From the NCBI GenBank assembly GCA_916048095.2, contig OU696581.1, forward strand, positions 1 to 64,000: a DNA stretch of 64,000 nt, read 5' to 3'. The notes beneath the pieces were generated by a model. That model saw nothing but the letters and a program-made list of their open reading frames with translations, ran no database searches and had not been told where the DNA came from. The position numbers and the translations under genes were made by a program. This document shows, in pieces, positions 1,793 through 64,000 of this stretch. The DNA comes from Sacculina carcini. Lineage: Eukaryota; Arthropoda; Thecostraca; Sacculinidae. How positions within the stretch are numbered: the stretch's first letter is position 1; each line of letters opens with the position of its first letter.

Positions 1793-2535
1793 CAACCACA
1801 ACGATTGGTGACCACCAGTCATATAATGTTTTCAGATTCTCATGGCTTCTCAACGTGTTCAGAGATGCTACTAATTGCAACAAATTATACAACAGACGGT
1901 ATTGAGAATATGAACGAATAATTAACTTTCAGGTACAGCAATATTAATATCATTTTTCATGGATTTTGTGCGTGAGCAAACATATACAATTATATGTTAT
2001 ATTTGTGTATACAAGCAGCGAATAGTCACCAGTAGGTGAGAAGCATTGGAAATTTCACTGTCGCTTGCAGAAACATGCAGCAAGAAATGTCTGTACATTG
2101 TTAGCACGCCGAGTGCAAACAGTCAATGATTTGATATCAGAGTTCTGCTCAAGGCGTATTCCATCAATACATTGCATTACACCACTATTCACTGGAGTGA
2201 TCCTATGAACAATGCAACTGTTAATAGAATTATGAACTCTTCTGGTTTACTTAAAGTTGTGACATCAGTCTAGCGCACGCAAGTACAGAAATCACAGCAG
2301 CTGTTACTCTCGTAAACATGTTATTACAATGATGCATATACACGCTGTGATGACGTTTTATTATGTGGATTATTATTATCAGTAATAATAAGCATGCCCC
2401 TCGCACTGAATCAACATCGTGTTTAAGACCCACAACCGATACTCCAACACAATTTTGTCAAGTTGCTTGTCGAAGTGCGAGAATAGCAAGCTGAAATATA
2501 CAGGAAGATCATGTTTGCTGGCTGTTATATTCAGC
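1258..2535. other. Spacer without a supported gene
   Basis: AT-rich DNA with a short (CA)n tract near 1760-1790 and a small GGGGGTA-rich patch near 1420-1480 that may be transposon debris. The last exon of the Dpr-like gene that starts at 19925 could lie here, but no exon is convincing. Confidence 0.5.
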
Positions 2536-4926
2536 TGAGCATCAACACCATTACACGTTACTGAGCATCAACACCATTACATGTAACTGAGCATCAACAC
2601 CATTACATGTAACTGAGCATCAACATCATTACATGTAACTGAGCATCAACATCATTACATGTTACTGAGCATCAACACCATTACATGTAACTGAGCATCA
2701 ACACCATTACATATTACTGAGCATCAACACCATTACATGTAACTGAGCATCAACACCATTACTTGTTACTGAGCATCAACACCATTACATGTAACTGAGC
2801 ATCAACACCATTACATGTAACTGAGCATCAACACCATTACATGTTACTGAGCATCAACACCATTACATGTTACTGAGCATCAACACCATTACATATTACT
2901 GAGCATCAACACCATTACATGTTACTGAGCATCAACACCATTACATGTTACTGAGCATCAACACCATTACATGTAACTGAGCATCAACACCATTACATGT
3001 TACTGAGTATCAACATCATTACATGTTACTGAGCATCAACACCATTACATGTAACTGAGCATCAACACCATTACATGTAACTGAGCATCAACATCATTAC
3101 ATGTTACTGAACATCAACATCATTACATGTTACTGAGCATCAACATCATTACATGTTACTGAGCATCAACACCATTACATGTTACTGAGCATCAACATCA
3201 TTACATGTTACTGAACATCAACATCATTACATGTTACTGAGCATCAACACCATTACACGTTACTGAGCATCAACACCATTACATGTTACTGAGCATCAAC
3301 ACCATTACATGTTACTGAGCATCAACACCATTACATGTAACTGAGCATCAACACCATTACATGTAACTGAGCATCAACATCATTACATGTTACTGAGCAT
3401 CAATATCATTACATGTAATTGAGCATCAACATCATTACATGTAACTGAGCATCAACACCATTACATGTTACTGAGCATCAACACCATTACATGTTACTGA
3501 GCATCAACATCATTACATGTTACTGAGCATCAACACCATTACATGTTACTGAGCATCAACACCATTACACGTTACTGAGCATCAACACCATTACATGTTA
3601 CTGAGCATCAACACCATTACATGTTACTGAGCATCAACACCATTACATGTTACTGAGCATCAACACCATTACATGTTACTGAGCATCAACACCATTACAT
3701 GTAACTGAGCATCAACACCATTACATGTTACTGAGCATCAACACCATTACTTGTTACTGAGCATCAACATCATTACATGTTACTGAGCATCAACACCATT
3801 ACATGTTACTGAGCATCAACACCATTACATGTAACTGAGCATCAACACCATTACATGTTACTGAGCATCAACACTATTACATGTTACTGAGCATCAACAC
3901 CATTACATGTTACTGAGCATCAACACTATTACATGTTACTGAGCATCAACACCATTACATGTTACTGAGCATCAACACCATTACATATTACTGAGCATCA
4001 ACACCATTACATGTTACTGAGCATCAACACCATTACATGTTACTGAGCATCAACACCATTACATGTTACTGAGCATCAACACCATAACATGTTACTGAGC
4101 ATCAACACCATTACACGTTACTGAGCATCAACACCATTACTTGTTACTGAGCATCAACACCATTACATGTTACTGAGCATCAACACCATTACATGTTACT
4201 GAGCATCAACACCATTACATGTTACTGAGCATCAACACCATTACATGTAACTGAGCATCAACACCATTACATGTAACTGAGCATCAACATCATTACATGT
4301 TACTGAGCATCAACATCATTACATGTAACTGAGCATCAACATCATTACATGTAACTGAGCATCAACACCATTACATGTTACTGAGCATCAACACCATTAC
4401 ATGTTACTGAGCATCAACATCATTACATGTTACTGAGCATCAACACCATTACATGTTACTGAGCATCAACACCATTACATGTAACTGAGCATCAACACCA
4501 TTACATGTTACTGAGCATCAACACCATTACATGTTACTGAGCATCAACACCATTACATGTTACTGAGCATCAACACCATTACATGTTACTGAGCATCAAC
4601 ATCATTACATGTAACTGAGCATCAACATCATTACATGTTACTGAGCATCAACATCATTACATGTAACTGAGCATCAACACCATTACATGTTACTGAGGAT
4701 CAACACCATTACGTGTTACTGAGCATCAACATCATTACATGTTACTGAGCATCAACACCATTACATGTTACTGAGCATCAACACCATTACATGTTACTGA
4801 GCATCAACACCATTACATGTAACTGAGCATCAACATCATTACATGTTACTGAGCATCAATACCATTACATGTTACTGAGCATCAACACCATTACATGTTA
4901 CTGAGCATCAACACCATTACATGTTA
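2536..4926. repeat. 26-bp minisatellite, about 92 copies
   Basis: A head-to-tail array of the unit TGAGCATCAACACCATTAC followed by ATGTTAC. There are a few recurrent variants: ATCATT for ACCATT, ATGTAAC for ATGTTAC, and ACG or TTG in place of ATG. The span divided by 26 gives 92 units without gaps. The ATGTAAC variant creates the 10-bp palindrome TTACATGTAA. The variant order repeats with an offset of 910 bp (35 units): for example, the block beginning 3331 recurs at 4241. It lies downstream of the last visible exon of Dpr gene B and may be in its final intron or its 3' flank. Confidence 0.97.
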
Positions 4927-55409: not shown

Positions 55410-55844
55410 TTACTTGTCATAATCGACGTACACTCGCACCACCTCGCCGGAGTACTTGCGCTGGCTGGGCATGAAGTAGAAGTCAGGAGGAGGTTGTTGT
55501 TGGGAGTGACGTCCCAGTGAGCTGTTTGTGCCGCCAGTCTCCGGAGCACGCTTCAACGTCGAAGATCTGCGTGCGGCGGCAGGATCGGCCATTTCAGGCA
55601 GCGGATGGTAGTCGGCGTATGGGTCGGCGGCGGCGGTGGAGGTGGCGGCTCTGTTGCGAGGAAGACTGTGTGACAGTCGTGCTGCTACCGGAGCTCGGGG
55701 ACGTCGGTTCTCCGTCATCTGTGAGTGTGCCAACTCAGCCTCGCCACCACCACCGGCCTTCTGACCTCGCTCAAACGTCTCATACGCATAGTTGTGGTGG
55801 CCAGCGGACATTTCCCACGCCGTGTTGCCGCCCAGCATGTCACT
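55410..55844 (-). CDS. DOMON/SEA gene, last exon: cytoplasmic tail
   Basis: Acceptor ATTCTTCTTGCAG, phase 0, 144 residues and TGA. Contains several Tyr motifs (HHNYAYETF, DPYADYHPL, DFYFMP, VYVDYD) that could be phosphorylation or sorting sites, plus basic and proline-rich stretches. No enzymatic domain. Confidence 0.85.
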   Translation of the reverse strand, partial: SDMLGGNTAWEMSAGHHNYAYETFERGQKAGGGGEAELAHSQMTENRRPRAPVAARLSHSLPRNRAATSTAAADPYADYHPLPEMADPAAARRSSTLKRAPETGGTNSSLGRHSQQQPPPDFYFMPSQRKYSGEVVRVYVDYDK

Positions 55845-58800
55845 CTGCAAGAAGAATATTAGAACAAGCAATCAAACAGCAGTTCCACTATTCTCCAATA
55901 ATTATTGATTGCATCCACGTGGCTATGATTACGCTCACATATAAATTGACCGACCAGAATAGCAGCAAATTCACGGAATAAGGCAGCCTGATTCCTGGTT
56001 TAGCTAGCTCAGTGGAAGCTGTCATCACTCATCACTCACCATCACTGTCATCATCACTCATAACTCACCATCACTGTCATCATCACTCATCACTCACCAT
56101 CACTGTCATCATCACTCATAACTCACCATCACTGTCATCATCACTCACCATCACTGTCATCATCACTCATCACTCACCATCACTGTCATCATCACTCATC
56201 ACTCACCATCACTGTCATCATCACTCATCACTCACCATCACTGTCATCACTCATCACTCACCATCACTGTCATCATCACTCATCACTCACCATCACTGTC
56301 ATCATCACTCATCACTCACCATCACTGTCATCACTCATCACTCACCATCACTGTCATCATCACTCATCACTCACCATCACTGTCATCATCACTCATCACT
56401 CACCATCACTGTCATCACTCATCACTCACCATCACTGTCATCATCACTCATCACTCACCATCACTGTCATCATCACTCATAACTCACCATCACTGTCATC
56501 ATCACTCACCATCACTGTCATCATCACTCATCACTCACCATCACTGTCATCATCACTCATCACTCACCATCACTGTCATCATCACTCATCACTCACCATC
56601 ACTGTCATCACTCATCACTCACCATCACTGTCATCATCACTCATCACTCACCATCACTGTCATCATCACTCATCACTCACCATCACTGTCATCACTCATC
56701 ACTCACCATCACTGTCATCATCACTCATCACTCACCATCACTGTCATCATCACTCATCACTCACCATCACTGTCATCACTCATCACTCACCATCACTGTC
56801 ATCATCACTCATCACTCACCATCACTGTCATCACTCATCACTCACCATCACTGTCATCACTCATCACTCACCATCACTGTCATCATCACTCATCACTCAC
56901 CATCACTGTCATCATCACTCATAACCCACCATCACTGTCATCATCACTCATCACTCACCATCACTGTCATCATCACTCATCACTCACCATCACTGTCATC
57001 ACTCATCACTCACCATCACTGTCATCATCACTCATCACTCACCATCACTGTCATCATCACTCACCATCACTGTCATCATCACTCATCACTCACCATCACT
57101 GTCATCATCACTCATCACTCACCATCACTGTCATCATCACTCATCACTCACCATCACTGTCATAATCACTCATCACTAACCATCACTGTCATCATCACTC
57201 ATCACTCACCATCACTGTCATCACTCATCACTCACCATCACTGTCATCACTCATCACTCACCATCACTGTCATCATCACTCATCACTCACCTTTCCGTTG
57301 ACGGACGGCTGGGCAGAGCTGGTGGTGGCGCGTCTGTTGCGCGCCAAAGTGCACGCGGCCTGCACGAGCGTGAGCACGATGAGTGCGGCCACAACCACCA
57401 CAATCACGTAGACCTTGAGTTTCTCGTCGTCCCACTGCTGCTTACTGATCGGACCCTGAGCCTCAGACAAACTGACCGCTGCACAATCACACACAATCAC
57501 ACACAATCACACGACAATCACACACAATCACACGACAATTCCACACGATCACACGACAATTCCACACAATCACACACAATCACACACAATCACACGACAA
57601 TTCCACACAATCACACGACAATTACACGACAATTACACACAATCACACGACAATTACCCACAATCACACACAATCACACGACAATCACACACAATCACAC
57701 ACAACCACACACAATTACACTACAATCATACGACAATCACACCCAATCGCACACAATCACAAGCAATCACATACAATCACACACAATCACACGACAATCA
57801 CACACAATCACACACAATCACACGACAATATCAGTATTGATACGTTCAATCACAACCTTGCTTGTTGCTGCATGCTGCAATCGTTTTGTTCAATAATAAT
57901 AATAATAATAATAATAATGTATGAGCTTTGGATTGGATGAAAAAATACATAAAATTACATTTTGTGCCGATCTGTGCGAAGCTGCGTCGCTCGAAGCTGA
58001 TATTTTTTAGATGCATTTTAGTGGTGCGTTTGGTGTGATGTCGTGTCATGTGTGTCGGTCTGCATCTGTGAGTATGTGTCAGTAAGTGAATAGTCTTTTT
58101 TCTTGACCTCTTTTAGTGAATCTCTTGGCTATGAGGAGCTGATGGAAATATTTTGGGGAGGGCTTCAGCCCCTTGAACCCCCCTGGATCCGCCATTGGCA
58201 AATATTCGCATAATGACTAATGTATACACACATTTCAACACTGGCCTTCACAGGCAGTGGTTTTGACTGCACTGACCGCTGGCTTGTCTGATGTGCAGGA
58301 ACTGCGGGTTGACCTGCAGCTCGCCCACCTGACCTGTGGACACGGTCTCGGCAAGCAGACGCTGCACTTGCTCCATCATCGGGTCGTGATGTGAGCCAGA
58401 CACTGCGGCCGCCACCGTCACAGAACCTCTCTTGTCGTCCGAGGCAGACTGGTCGGTCGTCTTCGCCTCTCGACCAGAATCCACCTGGATCAACAGACTG
58501 GCCAGTGTTTGGCCTTCTTGCCTGAAAACATCGCCACAATGTTCAGTCACTTCAACCGGCGACGCTCGCCCATGCTTGATCAAGTATTTGTTCTACTAAA
58601 TTGAATCAGTTCCATAGACGTTCATGAAACGCCAAACAAAAGTACACTGTACAGAAGTATATTAGATCAGATCACAGCACAGGAGAAACTGGTTCACTCA
58701 TGGAAGCTCGAACCTTGTCAAGTTGGTGACTTGCACGTGCTTTATTGAAATGGCCAGCGGTTCCAGTGCCTTCATGACGTCATCAGTCAGCTGTTGCGAC

Positions 58801-62842: not shown

Positions 62843-63922
62843 ACACACACACACGTACACATACGGTCAAAATATGTTCAGTTCTACACATTACAGTGAG
62901 CCAATGTGTACTTGAACATCTTCACTTGAAAACAGACTTAAATTTTTCAGGTTCACGGTGTCATAATCGACGACTGATGTTCAAGTTCCACATATTGCGA
63001 TATTCTGTGGTAATATACTGTATAACTCGACCACATTACGCCGTACTACAATGACAAGCCTAGCTCTGTCTGCATACCTGGCTATCCGACGTTGAACGTT
63101 TGCGCACGAATTCAATCATCTGCCGGCCATTCTTGAGCTGCGTGGACACGTTGTAGATGTCCTGCTGGGTGTCGATCAGCGGAGGACTGTAGCCAGTCAA
63201 GTAAGCGTCCACCACAATGGGTTCACCCTGCTGAGGAACGAAACCGAGCACAACGTCACTCGCCGGCATCATGTTGTCTCGCGAGAAACCCACCCCGGTC
63301 CAGCCGTCCGTGTTGACCGTTTCCAATGAGAAGTGAATCTCGTCAGAGGCAGATTCGTAGCGCCAGCGCACAGCATACTCGCAGTTGTGCTCATCAAACG
63401 AGCATGACGACGGCTGCTTCCATTCATCACCACACTCTGTTCCAGGAGAACCACCGCTTGAGCCGCCTTCATCACTCGCCTCACGGAAGTTGAGCAGTAA
63501 ATGACCACGCTGATTACCTCGCCCGTGATATTTGATCTCGTCGGGCCGGTAGAAGTCGGGCATGGAAGGAGAACCGCGTTCCAGCCCTGACGGTGGTGTG
63601 TGAACATAGCTACCAGATTCTTGACCCACCGCCCAAATGACGTGCATCAGTGCGTCCTCGATGTGGTGGTCGGTCGGCTCGGAGGCCGCTTCAACGAGAC
63701 GTCTGAACACCACCGTTGTCACGCCGTCCTCCTCGTAGGCCAAGGCCGCAGTGAGACTGGAAGTACCTCCCCAGAACTGGTCAAGGCGCGGAGTGGACCG
63801 GTCTCTGGTGTAATAGTCGCCCACGTTGCCGTAAAAACCGCGGGCTCGACCAATAACAATGTCCGTGCAGTCCATTTCGTGGAAATCACCCCGAGGAGTG
63901 TAGTTGGTTCCAGACTGCGCTC
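55410..63922 (-). CDS. DOMON-DOMON-SEA single-pass membrane protein (N-terminus off window)
   Basis: Seven exons (63922-63078, 62754-62613, 60236-60165, 58921-58714, 58521-58277, 57478-57291, 55844-55410) join with matching phases to 710 residues. From the first visible residue: the C-terminal part of one DOMON domain (about 11-145, with DCTDIVIGRARG, GDYYTRDRSTP and YHGRGNQRG), a second DOMON (about 173-328, CSFDEHNCEYAVRWRY to SEKICIRSC), an Asn/Ser linker (329-352), a SEA-like module (about 360-495), a transmembrane helix (about 525-548, VYVIVVVVAALIVLTLVQAA) and a 160-residue cytoplasmic tail ending VRVYVDYDK. DOMON domains bind haem or sugar in other extracellular proteins; SEA modules are membrane-proximal and often self-cleaving. 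A type I surface protein is inferred. I cannot name the orthologue. The 5' exons lie beyond 64000. Confidence 0.85.
55845..57290 (-). other. DOMON/SEA gene intron 6
   Basis: 1.4 kb, almost all of it the minisatellite at 56021-57290, plus about 175 bases of AT-rich sequence before the acceptor. Confidence 0.9.
56021..57290. repeat. Minisatellite starting at a 5' splice site, about 45 units
   Basis: Units of 29, 26 or 22 bp built from CATCACTCACCATCACTGT and CATCACT blocks. Read on the minus (gene) strand, the array begins exactly at the donor of the transmembrane exon, GTGAGTGATGAGTGATGA, and nearly every unit contains GTGAGT. A higher-order duplication of 361 bp is visible: the block around 56117 recurs around 56478. 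Confidence 0.96.
57291..57478 (-). CDS. DOMON/SEA gene, transmembrane exon
   Basis: Acceptor GTGATTGTGCAG, phase 1; donor GGAAAG followed by GTGAGT, phase 0. It codes for a short stalk (QGPISKQQWDDEKLK), a single hydrophobic helix rich in Val/Leu and a basic stop-transfer segment (ARNRRA). Both flanks are tandem repeats reaching the splice sites. Confidence 0.92.
57479..58276 (-). other. DOMON/SEA gene intron 5
   Basis: Holds the ACAATCACAC array, an AAT trinucleotide run (57893-57917) and, at about 58148-58197, a transposon scrap ending CTGGATCCGCCATTGG that resembles a hAT-type terminus. Confidence 0.75.
57487..57835. repeat. Tandem ACAATCACAC array at a 3' splice site
   Basis: About 35 short units (CACACAATCA, CACGACAATCA and relatives). 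On the gene strand they read TGATTGTGTG and end at the acceptor GATTGTGCAG of the transmembrane exon, so the array supplies the pre-acceptor sequence. Confidence 0.93.
58277..58521 (-). CDS. DOMON/SEA gene exon: second part of SEA module
   Basis: Acceptor GATGTTTTCAG (phase 2 in), donor CAGCG followed by GTCAGT (phase 1 out). It carries TLASLLIQVD, then GSVTV, then the C-terminal helix and strand (MMEQVQRLLAETVSTGQVGE and LQVNPQFLHI). Acceptor, donor and frame agree with both neighbours. Confidence 0.88.
58413..58427 (-). other. Candidate SEA autoproteolysis motif
   Basis: Codes for Gly-Ser-Val-Thr-Val (residues 454-458 of the visible protein). The SEA self-cleavage consensus is Gly-Ser-Val-Val-Val, cut between Gly and Ser. 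An alternative alignment puts EGQT at the cleavage position, in which case this copy would not be cleaved. Confidence 0.35.
58714..58921 (-). CDS. DOMON/SEA gene exon: first part of SEA module
   Basis: Acceptor GATCGAGTTCAG (phase 1 in); donor ACAAG followed by GTTCGA (phase 2 out, a weak donor). It encodes the first strand VRGYVVQLKLL, a helix (SQQLTDDVMKALEPLAI) and the strand VQVTNLT, which fit the SEA fold order. Confidence 0.82.
58922..60164 (-). other. DOMON/SEA gene intron 3
   Basis: AT-rich with no recognisable repeat or gene. Confidence 0.7.
60165..60236 (-). CDS. DOMON/SEA gene exon: Asn-rich linker
   Basis: A 72-base exon between acceptor TTTTCTTGTCAG and donor GCGCAG followed by GTGAGA. 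Only one frame is open; it encodes DSTNNNNNKLNNNNSSSKMK from an AAC/AGC repeat. The phases (1 in, 1 out) match the exons on both sides. It is probably a flexible, glycosylated spacer. Confidence 0.8.
60237..62612 (-). other. DOMON/SEA gene intron 2
   Basis: 2.4 kb. 60726-61631 holds three hydrophobic reading frames described separately. The right half (61900-62600) is very AT-rich and featureless. Confidence 0.7.
60726..61631 (-). pseudogene. Possible decayed multipass receptor gene nested in an intron
   Basis: Three consecutive minus-strand frames, 61631-61233, 61240-60932 and 60935-60726, touch end to end in different phases. Each is strongly hydrophobic: LVCLCVIVVLWLVLCVCWW, LVHALCIMLVLEILDILLL and FALTLLFQIVILHALNNFQ. 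The last block, preceded by RRILSRGSILVNS, faintly resembles the final helix of arthropod gustatory-type (7tm_7) receptors. Frameshifts between the frames suggest decay, but unrecognised introns could also explain them. The family call is tentative. Confidence 0.28.
62613..62754 (-). CDS. DOMON/SEA gene exon: end of second DOMON
   Basis: Acceptor GTGTGTCATTAG (phase 0); donor CTTGTG followed by GTGGGT (phase 1). It reads DLSFSDDECLHMLFPIRGGG and ends VSSEKICIRSC, the Cys-containing closing strands expected after the DOMON core in the previous exon. The (CA)n tract at 62760-62855 lies directly upstream on the gene strand. There is no ATG, so it is easily missed. Confidence 0.88.
62760..62855. 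repeat. (CA)n microsatellite at a splice acceptor
   Basis: A CA run of about 95 bases with short interruptions at its right end. On the gene strand it is (TG)n, ending 5 bases before the acceptor AG of the exon at 62754. Confidence 0.96.
63078..63922 (-). CDS. DOMON/SEA gene exon: end of DOMON 1 and core of DOMON 2
   Basis: 281 codons, acceptor ATTGTTCCACAG (phase 1 in), donor AGCCAG followed by GTATGC (phase 0 out). Contains DFHEMDCTDIVIGRARG, LMHVIWAVGQ and FYRPDEIKYHGRG of the first domain, a Gly/Ser hinge (SDEGGSSGGSPG), and HCEY-like CEYAVRWRY, WTGVGFSRDN and SDVVLGFV of the second. The frame stays open to 63968, but the acceptor is a better start for the exon. Confidence 0.88.
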
Positions 63923-64000
63923 CTGTGGAACAATTTCCGAGTGAAACATGGTACACAGCATCATACAATGAATTTATATATCCGTTGTGAGCAAAATGAC

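Follow-up and report, generated by a model that had tools for sequence, protein, structure and literature searches.

A minisatellite of donor-like units beginning at a predicted 5' splice site in Sacculina carcini

How might a 5' splice site come to be followed by dozens of near copies of itself, and which of them would then be used? The question is raised by the minus strand of the window, the 64-kb stretch of DNA analysed here (64 kb at the start of contig 12, in an assembly of 264 Mb and 43 contigs), where a minisatellite begins at exactly the predicted end of a transmembrane exon (AAAG|GTGAGT). With 43 decoys behind the true donor, this locus is a natural test of spliceosome choice among near-equal 5' splice sites. 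The kind is already known from the human IFI6 minisatellite and the amphioxus mirages, and other precedents may exist beyond the open-licence literature searched.

The array and its host gene

The features of the window are, in the order of the minus strand:
63078 to 63998, minus strand: DOMON-domain exon, open at the window end (Pfam DOMON, E = 7e-40)
58277 to 58521, minus strand: predicted exon of the extracellular part, preceding the transmembrane exon
57482 to 57829, minus strand: second array with a unit of about 10 nt (TGTGATTGTG), stopping 3 nt short of the transmembrane exon, before the acceptor CAG
57291 to 57478, minus strand: predicted transmembrane exon of 188 nt, phase 1 at its start and phase 0 at its end (YVIVVVVAALIVLTLVQAACTLA ... 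NGK)
56022 to 57291, minus strand: minisatellite with donor motifs; of its 46 units (29, 26 or 22 nt, the final one incomplete), 44 contain GTGAGT
57285 to 57290, minus strand: predicted natural 5' splice site GTGAGT, inside array unit 1
56424 to 56833, minus strand: 410 bp that recur without change at 56063-56472, an offset of 361 bp
55410 to 55844, minus strand: cytoplasmic-tail exon with a predicted stop codon (VDYDK stop)

Over the last 9 kb of the window, the minus strand reads as one gene or parts of two. All exon limits are predictions, and the boundary of the transmembrane exon was derived from the reading frame, codon bias and the phase match to the next acceptor. The DOMON exon possibly belongs to the same gene as the transmembrane exon; this link is unsettled because its donor phase misfits the next open frame seen (58931-58698). 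A genome search with the transmembrane exon gave no second match at E up to 1. Other parts of the window contain dpr-like immunoglobulin exons, a likeness that suggests a protostome; the one such exon scanned gave only sub-threshold Ig matches.

The array (57291-56022) is 1,270 bp long, with a period of 29 and a score of 2113 in Tandem Repeats Finder. On the predicted boundary, position 57291 is the final exonic G and 57290 the first base of the intron; the repeat unit thus starts at the donor, and of the exon it includes no more than this G. The hexamer GTGAGT occurs in 44 of the 46 units, counting unit 1 with the natural donor, and the other two units carry GTTAGT and GTGGGT. Donors within the array have the form ATG|GTGAGT (43 exact); that of the exon is AAG|GTGAGT. 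On one side the array is flanked by the coding exon, on the other by 177 unique bp up to the next acceptor. The preliminary description of about 45 tandem donor-like motifs beginning at the donor is confirmed by these counts, at a boundary that is itself predicted.

The 361-bp higher-order period described earlier is real, but it rests on a single duplication, 56833-56424 being identical to 56472-56063 over 410 bp. That the array is still turning over is supported by this perfect internal duplication. A perfect duplication of such length can resemble misassembly; a collapsed or inflated repeat would nevertheless be an extremely improbable explanation, given an assembly of 264 Mb in 43 contigs and the variant units interspersed outside the duplication.

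The 18-mer at the array start (GTGAGTGATGAGTGATGA) has 39 matches in the 264-Mb genome, 38 in the array itself and one on contig 18. At the latter place (contig 18:8,224,986, locus L049, minus strand), the 18-mer lies at the end of an open exon-like frame with no family match above cut-off, and the exon-like donor is followed by GAGTGAT three times in succession (GTGAGTGATGAGTGATGAGTGATG). This has the look of an early stage and is apparently an incipient array. The proposal that the minisatellite was seeded at the donor thus gains support from unit 1, which holds the natural donor, and from the three-copy form at the contig 18 donor.

The account that we favour, and hold to be probably correct, is a donor-seeded tandem duplication in which the natural donor is still dominant and the copies are tolerated. 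The intronic minisatellite would have had the 5' splice site as its founder unit: a short segment beginning at the donor would have been duplicated head to tail and then have grown through more tandem duplication, bounded by the coding exon and by the unique 177 bp ending in the next acceptor. Seeding at the donor is favoured because the phase of the array coincides with the predicted exon end.

Boundary minisatellites are known in amphioxus as mirages (Adh3, globin and TnC, with PGBD5 repeats likened to them), and they are reported to leave splicing intact (PMC3087553, PMC3902484). Mirages and the window array are alike in being minisatellites at exon/intron boundaries with splice signals in many units (AG/GT in mirages). 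Mirage units are described as spanning the boundary and copying exon sequence, whereas the window array copies only the last exonic G. Mirages are also unstable in length; the one allele of the window array examined shows the exact internal duplication of 410 bp. If donor anchoring holds under annotation, the mirage phenomenon would extend from amphioxus to a distant animal lineage. In human segmental duplications, internal tandem repeats of about 30 bp, some at exon-intron boundaries, can alter splicing (PMC2812944); such repeats may there remain exonic or turn into novel introns, whereas the window array is intronic from the donor on.

Donor strength and the consequences of decoy use

Calculated pairing with the U1 5' end gives the natural donor -11.5 kcal/mol and the standard array donor -10.0 kcal/mol; three further donors predicted in the gene region range from -4.2 to -7.5 kcal/mol. 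No array site equals or exceeds the natural donor in this pairing. The natural donor most likely still wins, since no other site pairs as well with U1 and none lies closer to the exon. Under donor seeding with tolerance, it would serve almost all transcripts, the 43 donor copies would be tolerated, and an array donor would be used only occasionally. Both of two alternative donors can carry U1 though only one is used (PMC5861446).

Translation continuing past the exon would add VSDE, to end NGKVSDE, before it meets a stop within unit 1. Because the stop sits in unit 1, every array donor, as well as intron retention, leads to the identical truncated protein, which ends in NGKVSDE after the membrane span and is without the cytoplasmic tail.

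Three consequences had been offered in the preliminary description: titration of U1 snRNP, alternative exon ends and simple tolerance. Of these, simple tolerance is the best fit, and the array is probably not a device. Titration is unlikely on stoichiometry, since U1 is very abundant and the nascent transcripts of one gene are few. Alternative exon ends through array donors are possible.

Alternative exon ends have a human precedent in the IFI6 (6-16) minisatellite, the units of which differ in sequence from those of the window array. PMC3618361 and PMC4526556 cite Turri et al. 1995 (NAR 23:1854) for it. Both systems consist of tandem repeats with donor-consensus units, and the window array begins at a predicted 5' splice site. 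Two downstream IFI6 repeats are reported to be used as donors, with three mRNAs as the result (PMC4526556, PMC3618361). Array donors can therefore be used, which counts against tolerance. An array of this type, with several donors used, whether under regulation or as noise, and either a tail-less protein or nonsense-mediated decay as the outcome, would draw on 43 extra exact donors, the standard one pairing more strongly with U1 by calculation than the other three in the gene region, as well as on the IFI6 precedent (PMC4526556). We regard it as unlikely, since the natural donor is stronger and the amphioxus mirages are reported to have no effect on splicing. One protein end for all array donors also implies little isoform diversity. 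IFI6 units are used as donors; those of the window array would lead straight to a stop.

The acceptor side of the transmembrane exon bears on a further possibility. The 21 nt preceding its CAG are UG-rich and without a polypyrimidine tract, the longest pyrimidine run being 2, compared with 4 for the exon preceding it and 8 for the tail exon. Judged by the pyrimidine run, this acceptor appears weak. UG-rich sequence beside an acceptor weakens exons, for example CFTR exon 9. If the transmembrane exon were skipped, the G would join AGTGAC to give GAG TGA, a stop one codon on, in the apparent last exon, and the predicted product is therefore a secreted ectodomain.

It is thus conceivable that U1 docked along the array helps to define an exon that would otherwise be skipped. 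The acceptor run of at most 2 pyrimidines in 21 nt, the skip frame and the strong calculated U1 sites from about +30 onward are consistent with such an enhancer, and in PAH exon 11 a weak acceptor is reported to be aided by U1 bound downstream of the donor, which stimulates splicing (PMC5933811). The two exons share a U1-binding sequence shortly past the natural donor and an apparently weak acceptor; for PAH exon 11 the effect of a single short element was demonstrated, whereas the window array has 43 donor copies with calculated U1 pairing. Sense GTRAGT is absent from the seen part of 11 of 12 other donor-adjacent arrays, which argues against a general role, and we consider the enhancer a doubtful explanation of the array. 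Tolerance of the copies, with the natural donor dominant, remains the preferred reading.

Recurrence of arrays at donors elsewhere in the genome

Three spaced GGTRAGT motifs occur at 558 places in the genome, versus 97 for the backward motif, a count that includes the tails of dispersed elements. Nine distinct donor-motif arrays besides that of the window were taken from among the matches listed (contigs 1-3) and from narrower patterns genome-wide, as a sample and not a census. The control motif, TGARTGG, is the donor motif backwards; 24 distinct arrays were found by our own count and 13 of them examined, 12 of which were selected non-randomly, for their higher copy number, while the thirteenth came from locus L047. 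Three of these 13 were treated as two separate edges, and two had one scorable edge. An edge was scored as donor-side if a GT lay within about 16 nt of it and ended an open frame with a coding bias above 20 bits. Before counting, two kinds of candidates were dropped: 14-bp ACAAATAGGTGAGT-like repeats (L040 and L043-L046, five of ten loci followed up), most of which lie behind a common upstream sequence and in this resemble a dispersed element's 3' tail, and contig 1:8,543,123, which is without a tandem array.

Donor-side edges made up 10 of 42 (22 arrays, two motif classes) against 6.3% at random (p = 2e-4), with 10 of the 22 arrays represented. The donor-motif edges alone are not significant (3/18, p = 0.10); among the control-motif edges the count was 7/24 (p = 5e-4), seven of the arrays being donor-adjacent and six not. 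By the same rule, one of the 42 edges was acceptor-side. The random expectation comes from 290 of 4,610 edges passing (6.3%) in the window and loci L050-L051, and was 5.6% around arrays; it is generous, because positions inside exons were included.

In an unselected 84 kb (the window and the next 20 kb), scored with a slightly stricter low-complexity filter than the motif-chosen arrays, one of 23 arrays lies at a donor, the window's own, and none of the other 22 starts at one. The rate of 10/22 is therefore valid for the sampled motif classes and not for tandem repeats at large, and the recurrence may be restricted to certain unit types. Within the same 84 kb, the second array lies at its acceptor, and a single edge in L050 weakly resembles an acceptor. 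In a small sample with unannotated exons, these sequence matches point to a possible wider pattern of donor-anchored arrays in the genome. No exon was found at either edge of the window's longest array, at 2535-4926, in which a 26-bp unit occurs 92 times.

The excess at donors is also what would be expected if the array had merely expanded within the intron, purifying selection barring it from the exon, so that the donor was not the seed. This alternative concerns the origin only and is compatible with tolerance. The 5' end of an intron needs only about six bases and the 3' end more, which fits the donor bias, and in most of the other arrays the first base lies at about +5 to +19, not at +1. 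The window unit, in contrast, opens with the hexamer of the natural donor, aligned to the exon boundary, and an incipient case is known at the exon-like donor of contig 18. Expansion from elsewhere in the intron thus seems less likely, while deserving more weight than the other alternatives, and seeding at the donor is retained.

Among the exons with an array at the donor, homology was found for an RPB3 exon (E = 1e-19) and a cullin-1 exon (E = 4e-6); a P-loop/Roc-like exon fell below curated cut-offs, and the remaining array-adjacent exons rest on codon bias. Further homology checks of candidate sequences gave no PDB match or were not significant. An array at contig 1:14,673,112 is donor-adjacent by eye and stands outside the ten, since its score of 11.7 is below the cut-off of 20. 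For four of the nine donor-motif arrays (contig 3:55,167, 12:3,260,502, 20:8,281,727 and 7:5,498,105) no exon was found at the edge. The array at contig 2:128,415 (L042, 2910-5062), with 86 copies of a 25-bp unit containing AGGTGAGT, was rejected as donor-adjacent: it ends 2 nt before a GPCR exon or supplies its start codon (Pfam 7tm_1, E = 1e-12), and thus lies on the acceptor or start-codon side.

Strand orientation and further loci

The G-rich search motif is antisense to the gene in 10 of 11 other donor-adjacent arrays (two-sided p = 0.012), namely the ten scored by rule and contig 1:14,673,112. The sole exception is a short array at contig 6:11,764,884, with four CAG|GTGAGT in sense at a predicted exon end. 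Its place at an exon end speaks for the favoured explanation. As in an amphioxus mirage, its unit seems to extend across the boundary, whereas the window array copies just one exonic base, a difference that we count against that explanation. With a second array on contig 18 included, sense GTRAGT is absent from the seen part of 11 of 12 arrays, two of which were covered incompletely. The sense composition partly follows from how the arrays were found, and we therefore take as evidence only the orientation ratio. The window array is unusual because it offers many sense donors.

These orientations could be explained by donor seeding throughout the genome together with selection against sense-donor arrays. 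Nearly all survivors would then carry the G-rich motif in antisense because selection removes the others, and the array at the transmembrane exon would have been spared because its many U1 sites help to define an exon with a UG-rich acceptor, and thereby govern how much of the protein is membrane-bound and how much secreted. This combination is, in our estimation, improbable. If donor anchoring holds, the strand bias would be a measure of selection against decoy donors. An R-loop or strand-skew cause was dropped, the skew of the window array being opposite to that of most other arrays.

At about 143 kb on contig 18 (L071/L076), one gene shows apparent minisatellites after two successive exons (22 copies of 33 bp and 30 copies of 31 bp), the second array starting approximately 5 to 29 nt past the predicted donor. 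Inspected by eye, this gene appears peptidase-M13-like; a search gave no PDB match. The kinase family gave no intron sample, because its matches were mostly long single open frames. On contigs 15, 20, 24, 31, 35 and others, single open frames of about 1,500-2,900 aa are clustered, and many of them hold several protein-kinase domains about 1.2-1.4 kb apart.
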